A stretch of 64,000 bases of DNA. Origin: Notolepis coatsorum. Lineage: Eukaryota > Chordata > Actinopteri > Aulopiformes > Paralepididae. The notes under the pieces were generated by a model. The model saw only the letters and a program-made list of their open reading frames with translations. It had not been told where the DNA came from and made no database searches. The DNA lies in contig OZ020587.1 of NCBI GenBank assembly GCA_963971535.1, positions 157,416,488 through 157,480,487 of the forward strand, in the 5' to 3' direction. Both the position numbers and the translations under genes were made by a program. Numbering within the stretch: the first letter of the stretch is position 1; each line of letters begins with the position of its first letter. Below are positions 22,401 through 34,400 of this stretch, one piece after another.

Positions 22401-25400
22401 TCTCCTAGCCAACAGTCTGGTCGCTTTTGGTCCCCCTTCATAGTACGTTTCATGAACCTCGCTTTCTTTTCTATTTCCGTCAATAATTCCCTATTTATCC
22501 TGGCCTTTACTTCTTTGATTTCTCCGAGCGTTTCCTGTTCTTTTGATATCTGGTGTCTCCCCTCTAGCTTCTTCAGCTTCCCTATCAGATTGTGATATGT
22601 CTCCGTTCTGGCCTTCTCTGTCTTCTCCATCAATTTCCCCCTTATCACCACCTTCAGTGTGTCTCATAGAATGTTCGGATCTACCGCCCCATTGTCATTT
22701 TCTTCCTTATACCTGGCTATCTCATCCTTGATCTGACTCACCACCCCCTTGTTATTTAATATTCCTACATTTAGTCTCCAGATCGTGTTCCTCCGTCTCC
22801 CTTCTAGATCTACTGTCAGATATATGGCACTGTGATCCGATATGTCCGCTACTCCTATTCTGCTCTCCCGTACCCTGTAACTGTCCCCCGTCGTCATCAA
22901 AAAGTAGTCTATTCTCGCATATGTCACGTGTGGGTGTGAGTAATGTGTGTATTCCCTGTCCATGGCGTGCATCCCCCTCCAAACATCTGTAATTCCCATT
23001 TCCGTCACCTGAATATTCATATATCTACTGATTGGTGCCCGTCCTTTTCTAGTACTCGTGGTGTCTAGGTCGTGATTCAGTACTACATTAAAATCTCCCG
23101 CGCATATCAATATCCCTTCTAGTTCCATCACTATCATATCAAAAATGGTCTCATGTAAATCCCTCTCACTCTTTGGGGGTGCATAAACATTCACTAACGT
23201 AATCATTTGACCCTCCATTTTTCCCTTCACCAGAACAAACCTTCCCTCGTCTCTTACTTCCTTGATCAATTCAATTTTGACTGTTTTTGATTAACGTGAT
23301 TACTCCTCTCCTCAGGTTCCGTTTAAAGGAACTATAGTATGCATTTTCATATCCAAATCTCTTCAGTTTCTCATGATCCTGTGCTACCAAATGTGTCTCC
23401 TGCAGAAAAATCACTTCCATCTCACTTTTTTTACACTTCAACATCACTTTGCCCCTCTTTATCGTATTATTCATTCCATTAACGTTTAACGACATCATTT
23501 TTATACCTTTAACCATTGTCATCTTTCTTCTTTCGTCTGTCAGTCCCCCCCATGTCACATTCATTCCCCCCTCCGGTTGTAGCCTCCGCTCTCTTCACCG
23601 AATACATATAATGATTAACATAAATAAAAAACATAAACTTTACATAAAGTGCTCCCAAGGCGTTCGGGGGGTCCCTGTGTCCCCCCCTGTCCCCTGCTGG
23701 TGGGTGAGGAGTAATTGCTCTCCTAGTGAGAGGCCTCCTCCTGACGGCTTGGGGGTTTGAAACCTTTACCCCCAACCGCTCGTCATATTTGTCCAGCTTT
23801 CTTACTGTTTTTATTGCTGTCGAGCTCCTGGTCAAAAGCGCTCTGTCCTTCATTCTGATCAAAGACTCCCATTTCCTAGGTCCCTCTCAATGTGGCTCAT
23901 ATGTGTCACCTCACAGCGCTTTGTGCCAGATCTCTACATTTTCATTTTTCAGATTATTCCAGATGGCTAAAGTACAGAATCTAAGCTTTCAAATGATGTG
24001 TCATATGTTGAAATCTGAGAATTTTTTTAACACGATGTGCTCAATTATAACTTGTAAACCTGGTTGTATTCTAGAATACTTAAGGGGGTGAAAGCCCTCT
24101 CAAAGGAAGGCCACTTTTCACACTTCAGACAGTTTCAACTGGGCGTCAACAAACCCCCTCCAGCAACGCCCCTCACCTGAATAGCATTAACATAATTAAG
24201 TACTGCCATGGCAGTTATCTCTCCTCAGGACCCGATCTTCATTCTCTTGTTTGTATTGAGCTGTACTGTATTGTGCCCATTCTGCAATCTGTTAATAACG
24301 TTTTCAATGCATAGTAGTATAGACATTATTAGCATAGTAGGTAGTAGTAGTAAAATGGATACTAGTAAAAGATGGTATGAAGGTTAGTAGTTTCAGATAT
24401 TAATTGAAGTTAATTTGGCTCGTCTTCTGCCAGCTTGTACAGACAGGAGCTTGACCTCGTTGACCTTAAGCACAAACCAAACTGCTTTAATAAAATTAAA
24501 TAGAATAGAATATGTCTAGAGTCTTTATTGTCATTATACAGACAGCGTTATATAGCTCAACAGTGCACAATTAATAAACAATAATAATTATTAGGAAGAT
24601 ACAATAAAATAGTCCATTTCTATGGTCCATCTATCTGGACAGTATAGGACTGTGAAGCTGCTTTGACACCAGAATTTCCCCAAGGGGATTAATAAAGGAT
24701 CATCTTATCTTAGTAGGTAACATCACAATAAAAAATAAACAATTTTAGGAAGATAAAATAAAAGTCAATGTCTACAGTGTATGGATGCAGGGTCCATCTG
24801 TGTGTGGGGGTGTGTGTGTGATCTCAGCACTTATCTGTATCTTTGTGTGTGTTGGGTCTTGAGGGGGTGTCTAACATCGTACAGTCTTGTTCTGAGGTGC
24901 TGTAGACGTTGGTCTTGAGGGTATCTAACATCGTACAGTCTTGTTCTGAGGTGCTGTAGATGTTGGTCGCGGGCATGTGATGTCTTTTCCCGCATCAGAA
25001 CAGTATTGTCTTATCTCCTTAAAAAGATAATTCTGCCTGTCATTGTCAAGTCCGGGTGGGGGTATCACTGGAAAATTGGAGATGGTCGGGTAGCGTTTTG
25101 GGTCTTTCAGCAGTTGAAACTCGAATGGTTCAGCATCATCACGGTGTAATTTCGCTGTCACCATGCCAGGTCTGCTGGCATCGAAGCTGTAATAGAATAA
25201 AGAACACATTTAAAATATTGTCTATTTCGTAAAGAAAACACTGGTCCCAGGACACTGAGTCAAGCATCCATGTCAACACATTTCGTACATTGATTACCAG
25301 AAACAAAATAAACCTTCTTCACCATAGCTAATAGGGCTAAGTAAATTAGCCTATTGCAATATTTGCAAACCAAAATTCTCTAAGATAAGAACAGAAAAAA

Positions 25401-31400: not shown

Positions 31401-34400
31401 TCGGTTTCTCGGTTGTTTTTTTCTATCACGTGGTGTCAGTCCATTTGTCTTGTAGTGCTTGATAATAGCTTTGAGAAGTCCACAGCTTATCCTAAACAAA
31501 AAAAAATAACAATTTGAAATAATTATTATACACACATACACGCAGTCCCTGCTAGAGCTAATGATATTGTCTTCAATACAGTCACGTGCTTTGCACTATA
31601 TAGAATATTATTGTATAGTACTGTTATACAATGAGTGCAGGTCTGGAAGGAATGTGAATCACTACCCACCTTCAAAAACACTCTCAAAGAACACCTACGG
31701 GAGACTGCAATTCAAAACTGGCCCCTACAAATGTCCTAACCCAGTTGTACAATAAAGACCAAGCATGGCTTTGTCAGTATTCCAATGTACAGTGTCCCCC
31801 CCCCTACCCAACCCCCCCCCCCCCCCCCCCACCTCCAATGTACAGCCCCACCCCACCTACCCAACCTCCCCAATGCAGTTTCTATGTCAAATGTATATAC
31901 ACTCTTTTTCTGGATTTTTTTTTTTTTTTTTTTTTTTGTATCACAAACAGTACTGTATTTGAAAATCTGGTATGTCATAAATGTATAGATGTAGCAGTAC
32001 TGTCTATCTGTATGTCGTGTGTGTCATGATGAATTGAAAATGGGGGACCCTGATGGAAACAAGACGAAAGTCTTTCTCAGGTCTGCATCCTCTTAACAAT
32101 TGTGTATTGAGCTGTACTGTACTGTACCCATTCTGCAATCTGTTAATAAACTTAATCAATCAAGGGTCTGCTATGACATCACTACTATGACAACACAACG
32201 TTCAAGAATGTACTACTAGCCTGTACTAACCGGTTCTACTGTGACATCACACTATGATTGCCATGACATTCATCTGAGTTTGTGCATACTACTAGGATGT
32301 TACAAGCAGAATTACGTTTATTCTAATTGCGCGTCAAAAACGAGGATTTATCCCTCATAGTTACACATACACACAGAATAATAATGGCACAGACTTACCC
32401 ATGGAGAAAGCAGAATGTTGTACGGCAGACCACGACGTTATGGAATCTGTAAACTGTCCGTGAAGCTTTGCGAATGGTGTTTACTCTCTTGGTGCTCTGC
32501 GTGACTTCAGAATCATTTATGCCTGTTTGTATAGCCGAGAGCAGACACATGTCCCTCTCTTTAGGCGTCAACGAGGCCATGTCCAGTCTGCTTTTGTATA
32601 TCAATTCTTCCGACAGTTTTGTTGTACACGACAACGCCTGCCGTTCGGAATTCTCTTTCCGCTCTTTATAGCATTTGCAATCAAACGTTCTTATTTTTTC
32701 CAATTCTTCATTGGTGTCACGGTCTACGGTTACAACAGACATCATATCTTCGACATCTCATCGTTAATTCCGTTGAATAGCCCGGTGTGACGGTCCCGCT
32801 GTGAACAGAATCATCCTCTAAATCTGATTGATCCGCGCGCTGCAATAAGTCATCTTCCTCTTCAGAATCATCCGCGCGCTGCTGTATCGGATCGATATCA
32901 GGCAATACGTCTTCATCCGAATCTTCTTCTTCATCTCAAGAGTCCGGTTTGCGCGGTGGTTCGGGGACTGGACCTGGGTAAAAAAAGTCCATTAAGAACC
33001 CATTCATTAAATGCGATCCATCGATGGCTCTTCCTGAAGCAGATATTTTGTTCAGCAGCGATCGTCTTTGCATCCATCTCTCAACGCAAGACACATTAAA
33101 AGTGTCACCAGGTGCCAACAGGTGTATAGGTCTTGTAGGGGCGTTGCGCTGCGGGCTGCCTCTCCCCCCAAGGTTTAGATTCGATTCAAATGCAAATTGT
33201 TATTACGCCCCCGTTCCACTGAAGGTTGTTACTATTTTTAGATATTCTAACTGTTCGTTTTTATAGTATATATGTGCTTATACATTCAATTTATAATAAT
33301 ATGAAGAAAAAAAAAACACACCCAAAAAAAAAAAAAAAATTCACGTCTAGACGAGAAGGGGGCGGGCCGAGTTCTGGTCAGTAGCGCTGCCAGGTGTCAC
33401 ATATGTTCCAATGTCCCTCCTTCCTCCCAAACCCGTGTGTGGTGTCTTCTGTGTACCCCTTTTTACTTTCTTTTCCTCCTCTCTATTTTCTATGTGATGT
33501 CCATTTATCCCCTTAATCCCTTCCAACTCGTTCCGTCTATCATACCTAATTATATTTTCATGTGTATTATGTGTCCATGTATACGTTATGTTCGTTCCTA
33601 TATCCTGCCTCTACCTGGGAATGTGTGTTTATGTATATGTTATTTCAGTTTCTATATTTTGTCTCTATTTGGATAGTTTTTTCAATCTCTTGTGCGTGTA
33701 CTCATCCGTTCGTCGCCTCCTCTCCTTCTCCGTCTCTGGCCTCCTCGTCCGTCTCCGGTCTGTCACGTCTCACCTCGGCCTTCTCCTCTTAGTCCAGTCA
33801 TTATAGGCCAGAATTAGGCTAAACCTAGGACAAATTGCAACATTAGCAAACTCAACTGATTTTGTATCCTCAATATGTCTTTAGTGAGAGAAAAAAAGTC
33901 TCAAGGAATCCCATCATGGGAAATGTGTTTTTTTTTCAATGTTTTGTTATCCCTATAGTCCAGTAATTATAGGCCAGAATTAGGCTAAACCTAGGACAAA
34001 TTGCAACATTAGCAAACTCACTGATTTTGTATCCTCAATATGTCTTTAGTGAGAGAAAAAAAGTCCCAAGGAATCCCATCATGGGAAATGTGTTTTTTTT
34101 TAATGTTTTGACACCTACTTGATTGCTGGCAGGATCACTGACGACACTGTCTTTCAGAGATTGTGACGCGTTCAAATTTTGAGGTAGCTCAAAAGTAAAG
34201 ATACCATTTGATTCTAGACAACCTCGGGTTTCCAATGAGACCAACCATGTCATGTTACCTCATTGGAAAGGGGGCTACATACCTAATTATTCAAAGTTAA
34301 GACGATTTTTTGGGGAGGGAAATATGGCCATCACCATTTTTCAAATGGTCCCTTGGCCTTCTACCTCAATATATGTTAATGGTATTGGGTTACATGGGTA

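Follow-up and report, generated by a model that had tools for sequence, protein, structure and literature searches.

Sola transposases are DDD enzymes and occur in bacteria too. The duplication left by Tc1-mariner elements is TA. The parts of the literature cited here place Sola among the superfamilies with DDD/E transposases (PMC9587614) and describe Sola2 elements as having inverted repeats of 12-21 bp and 4-bp AT-rich duplications of the form AWWT, which in one species are ATAT, AAAT and ATTT; one Sola2 protein is given there as 888 amino acids (aa) long (PMC3627910). The same parts give TTAA as the target duplication of both Kolobok and piggyBac (PMC9587614), and duplications of 8 bp for hAT and 3 bp for Harbinger (PMC12730594). 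The locus compared with them here lies in a stretch of 64,000 nucleotides (nt) of the fish Notolepis coatsorum (contig OZ020587.1, positions 157416488-157480487), referred to in its whole length as the window. It contains a DNA transposon with a single gene, of the DUF7869 type, which is in all likelihood the gene of the transposase. Copies were sought in the same 3.42 Gb genome, the one eukaryote genome examined.

The initial annotation of the window had recognised a DNA transposon with inverted ends, which is confirmed by the ends themselves, by other copies and by empty sites. Its borders, set at 23887 and 33412, had to be moved to 23903 and 33400 on the evidence of the other copies and the empty sites, and the 7-bp duplication GTCCCTC (or 8 bp with one mismatch) gave way to a 4-bp duplication, ATAT. 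When the genome was searched with the leftmost 301 bp (best 40 of 972 candidates scored, 41 matches listed), 40 scored matches were obtained outside the window, 36 of which start at query positions 18-20, ATAT being query 20-23; the remaining four start at positions 13, 16, 22 and 22. At the seven loci read besides the window, the flanks are unrelated up to ATATGTGTCACCTCACAGCGCT. A total of 24 distinct places were checked, namely 20 stretches selected for their left end, together with the window, L007, L008 and L030. At 14 of them the fetched DNA contained both ends, and each of these copies shows a perfect 4-bp duplication (12 ATAT, one ATTT and one AAAT), preceded by C or T in 11 cases and followed by G or A in 13.

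The empty sites lead to the same borders. When the L1 flanks of the window are joined with one ATAT, all 40 scored L1 copies (the best 40 of 965 candidates) match the whole 124 bases at 99%, and two uninterrupted L1 copies (L037 and L038), read letter by letter, contain one ATAT and GTCCCTC twice. GTCCCTC is therefore older than the insertion. At a second empty site, which lies in the repeat hit by L018, L025 and L007, none of the 40 scored copies (the best 40 of 989 candidates) is interrupted; each covers bases 6-108 of the 109 as a minimum, at 96-99%, and two of these copies were read. Two other delimitations were discarded: ATAT does not belong to the inverted repeat, because the empty sites hold a single ATAT and because the sequence flanking L015 and L030, read on one strand, is ATTT and AAAT, respectively, at either end, and a longer imperfect duplication around CAATG was dropped on the same evidence. 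The L1 does lie on both sides of the transposon, and the left flank includes its endonuclease and reverse transcriptase domains, although, contrary to what had been claimed, it is not intact, since its expected ORF2 is broken over separate frames. As a side observation, L018, L025 and L007 are inserted at one and the same ATAT within a single abundant repeat, with L007 oriented the other way round; this ATAT may be a preferred target or, for the two that are alike, the repeat may have spread after the insertion.

The clear inverted repeat is 18 bp long, 15 of the 18 terminal bases matching without gaps, which is equalled by 3 of 200,000 random pairs of 18-mers from the window. The imperfect inverted ends of about 40 bp proposed at first are thus retained for these 18 bp, the similarity further inward being weaker and gapped. 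Over the first 280 bp from the left end, identity between the 20 fetched copies and the window copy is 95.3-99.3%, which suggests that the element spread fairly recently. Copies with both ends span from 502 to 9,498 bp; the shortest, L008, consists of two opposed left-type ends and is bordered by ATAT left and right.

The element encloses a single split gene, read from the minus strand, in which both 13-residue stretches picked out initially are present. Its sister copy L029 offers an open model of seven exons with GT-AG introns, encoding 696 aa, and no further convincing gene was found in L029. The window copy carries the same seven exons (Table 1) instead of the eight first counted, a number that may be explained by the hAT-like insertion that splits exon 5. 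Due to this insertion, an in-frame stop and several frame changes, the window copy is dead, and L030, where both ends are present, lacks exon 3 together with the first part of exon 4. The assignment to DUF7869 is upheld by a Pfam profile search, in which the core exon of the window (26730-26984) matches PF25273 with E=2.4e-10 and 40.7 bits, the curated cut-off being 26 bits. All three full-length proteins match as well, namely those of L029 (55.1 bits), L039 (a relative in a bacterial contig, 53.0 bits) and L033 (50.7 bits), and nothing above cut-off was obtained with NCBIfam. Three aspartates are spaced identically, D-78-D-41-D, in L029 and L039. Judged by eye, the first closes a presumed strand (ITMHYSFD), the second follows another (VDLHCD) and the third is near a later helix (GHTKFGPD), segments that would fit the RNase H order. 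The PF25273 match in L029 starts at residue 442, and the first conserved aspartate is residue 414, upstream of it; therefore, the Pfam domain in its present limits leaves out one of the presumed catalytic residues.

The gene is present in many copies. An exon search of the genome (best 150 of 692 candidates scored) revealed at least 150 places for it, 47 of the 150 scored having one identical score, and a domain search (best 150 of 639 candidates scored) added further groups of frames of 289 and 220 aa, many with equal scores. Fetched copies are often broken or internally deleted. Three of the 220-aa DUF7869 frames, on one strand and 3,888 bp apart, form a tandem array at G000:C43:71212501-71220789. 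Gene and ends are associated, though incompletely: among the 20 left-end stretches, 12 (L009-L020) carry one or more exons of the gene, and four of the six stretches chosen by the gene (L029, L031, L032 and L033) show the end upstream of the gene only. Three of these four, L031-L033, represent a second family, whose L033 protein is 67% identical to that of L029 and which starts with GTGAC[T/C]CCGCCCAGCG directly after ATAT, an end related to that of the window element. For this end, 38 of the 39 other scored matches begin at query positions 1-5 (ATAT being 5-8) and one at 10. The opposite end of the second family did not turn up in the DNA retrieved. Between L029 and L033, the ratio of nonsynonymous to synonymous substitution rates (dN/dS) is 0.18 over 678 codons, pointing to selective constraint on the gene between the two families. 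The synonymous component (dS) is unequal along this comparison, 0.58 in the C-terminal part and 1.79 in the N-terminal part, which suggests recombination between the two families.

Outside this genome, two peptide patterns were scanned against the contigs of 84,980 prokaryote species, and one relative was found, L039, in a Nitrospirales metagenome-assembled contig. It is an intronless frame for a 621-aa protein, 33% identical to that of L029 over 553 aa and matching DUF7869 at 4.3e-14, and it lies between inverted arms of 64 nt that are 75% complementary; the best local alignment of its flanks scores 58 in inverted orientation, whereas 300 simple shuffles did not exceed 30 and the direct orientation reached 16. 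An ISL3-family insertion sequence (L039 2281-3621), with inverted ends of 22 nt and an 8-bp duplication CCCCATGT, interrupts the 3' end of the DUF7869 gene. Within the phylum, one of 395 genomes gave a match, and this was the contig's own genome; the contig may be misbinned. No relatives were found among viral contigs or among plasmids and phages, and DUF7869 was detected in none of 14 control genomes.

How would such an element move? According to the proposed mechanism, a DNA transposon inserted into an L1, where it is now a dead copy, and its sole gene would encode a DUF7869 transposase with three metal-binding aspartates, the third in GHTKFGPD, and presumably an RNase H-like fold. This enzyme would bind the 18-bp ends (GTGWCACCT..CAGCGCT), excise the element in a cut-and-paste manner by cutting at the terminal GTG/CAC, and join the ends to 4-bp staggered cuts at a palindromic target YAWWTR, often CATATG, whose repair would yield the 4-bp AWWT duplication. 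Internally deleted copies that retain the ends would presumably be mobilised in trans.

That DUF7869 is the transposase, as the initial annotation had proposed, is well supported, and confidence in it, as a DDD enzyme, is high. The reasons are that the element showed no further gene, that a second family of the gene begins with a related end after ATAT, that the L039 homologue sits between inverted repeats of its own, and that the three aspartates keep an identical spacing. Several observations weigh on the other side. At 10 of the 24 places the fetched DNA showed no right end, and the same is true of the other end of L029, whose protein also lacks 11 residues found in L030 and L033. Eight of the 20 stretches chosen by the end (L021-L028) have no exon of the gene at E<=1e-3, and the six stretches chosen by the gene, on which the first proposal should find the same ends, gave both ends once (L030), one end four times and neither in L034. 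The 4-mers flanking the L039 element differ (ATAT and AAAT), so that its duplication, if there is one, is imperfect. DUF7869 proteins matched none of the Pfam transposase families at E<=1, a profile search of solved structures returned chance matches outside the aspartate region, and DDD catalysis would depend on three conserved aspartates that are among many invariant residues of the three full-length proteins. That catalysis is presumed from these residues, and that stretches with the ends can lack the gene, would suit a DUF7869 that is a passenger or accessory gene, the true transposase being another protein acting in trans. This is nonetheless quite improbable, given that L029 has no other convincing gene, that the L039 homologue is the sole gene between its inverted repeats (the later ISL3 insertion aside), and that the gene has been kept by two families whose ends differ. 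As for a host gene captured by, or domesticated from, an unrelated repeat, the dN/dS of 0.18 would be in line with it, but it is already disfavoured because of the copy number, and the identical scores, the further groups of equal-scoring frames and the frequently broken or deleted copies make it hardly credible.

Taking DUF7869 as the transposase, to which of the known groups does the element belong? By likeness of its duplication and ends to the published descriptions, it probably falls in the Sola2 branch of the Sola superfamily, and would then be a new Sola2 family rather than a new superfamily. All 14 copies with both ends have an AWWT duplication and comprise all three types, ATAT, AAAT and ATTT, in the part of the Sola2 description cited above; its range of 12-21 bp for the inverted repeats (PMC3627910) includes the imperfect 18-bp repeat found here, and a single large transposase gene is a further likeness, whereas the 696 aa of L029 differ from the 888 aa of the one Sola2 protein cited. 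With piggyBac and Kolobok the element shares a 4-bp target duplication and a single transposase gene, but both have TTAA in the cited text and, in the case of piggyBac, no match to DDE_Tnp_1_7 was seen at E<=1. It differs from hAT, Tc1-mariner and Harbinger in its 4-bp duplication, and DUF7869 has no match to their Pfam families at E<=1. The initial exclusion of piggyBac, hAT, Tc1 and Harbinger consequently holds, on a 4-bp AWWT duplication in place of the 7 or 8 bp then given. The idea of an unrecognised transposase group fares differently in its two parts: the proteins are known as a Pfam domain of unknown function (DUF), and among the papers searched none names DUF7869, PF25273 or any of six spellings of the motif, but the duplications are as published for Sola2 (PMC3627910). 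DUF7869 could instead form a DDD superfamily of its own, independent of Sola, characterised by D-78-D-41-D and YAWWTR, present both in a bacterial contig and in a genome of animal type, and having only the AWWT duplication in common with Sola2. The link to Sola made here is one of duplications and ends rather than of sequence, DUF7869 has no named Pfam relatives at E<=1, and the protein lengths differ as mentioned, all of which would suit such a superfamily; proteins annotated as DUF7869 would then be undeclared transposases or derived genes. It is rather unlikely, since the set of ATAT, AAAT and ATTT is exactly that given for the Sola2 elements of one species and short imperfect inverted repeats are common to both; a DDD transposase and an occurrence in bacteria would not set DUF7869 apart from Sola either.

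Table 1. Features of the transposon and its gene, in window positions
Feature	Position	Strand	Basis or remark
Transposon, 9,498 bp, dead copy, gene on minus strand	23903..33400	-	Borders from other copies and empty sites
Target site duplication ATAT, left copy, 4 bp	23899..23902	.	Single ATAT in uninterrupted L1
Target site duplication ATAT, right copy, 4 bp	33401..33404	.	Other copies; L1 read letter by letter
Left terminal inverted repeat GTGTCACCTCACAGCGCT, downstream of gene	23903..23920	+	15/18 with right end
Right terminal inverted repeat, reading inward GTGACACCTGGCAGCGCT, upstream of gene	33383..33400	-	15/18 with left end
Exon 1, acidic N-terminal region, in-frame stop and frame changes	32399..33077	-	tblastn with L029 protein, donor site
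Exon 2, internal frame change	31206..31491	-	tblastn with L029 protein
Exon 3, TDLCWEC and HYSFDYAQQ (first conserved aspartate)	28582..28915	-	tblastn with L029 protein
Exon 4, start of DUF7869 domain	28244..28385	-	tblastn with L029 protein
Exon 5, split by hAT-like insertion; GHTKFGPD; second and third conserved aspartates	26724..28133	-	DUF7869 match, tblastn
Exon 6	25587..25720	-	tblastn with L029 protein
Exon 7, including stop codon	24925..25186	-	tblastn with L029 protein
Nested hAT-like insertion in exon 5, ends TAGGGCTGCAAC..GTTGCAGCCCTA, 8-bp duplication GTAATGAT on both sides	26996..28098	.	

Other repeats accompany the element in the window. A second nested repeat, in the intron between exons 2 and 3 (29001-30551), has inverted ends GGGCCC..GTACCTGG / CCAGGTACGGGGAATAGGGCCC. 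Outside the transposon, a piggyBac-type transposase (DDE_Tnp_1_7, zf-Tnp_2) at 14090-15766 is broken over three frames, and long overlapping frames of a short repeat (SGQHH / TQVNI units) at 40228-41163 are probably a minisatellite.

With DUF7869 as the transposase, a Pfam domain of unknown function receives a likely one: DUF7869 proteins would very probably be transposases or their remnants, and could be removed from gene sets in which they are counted among the host genes. If the Sola2 assignment is true, a new superfamily becomes unnecessary, and what is gained is the connection of a Pfam DUF with a named transposon group, a link that most likely had not been stated before. The relative between its own inverted repeats in the bacterial contig bears on the origin of the group, and the exact ends, the target site and the open gene model, taken from a family of many near-identical copies, make its activity directly testable.

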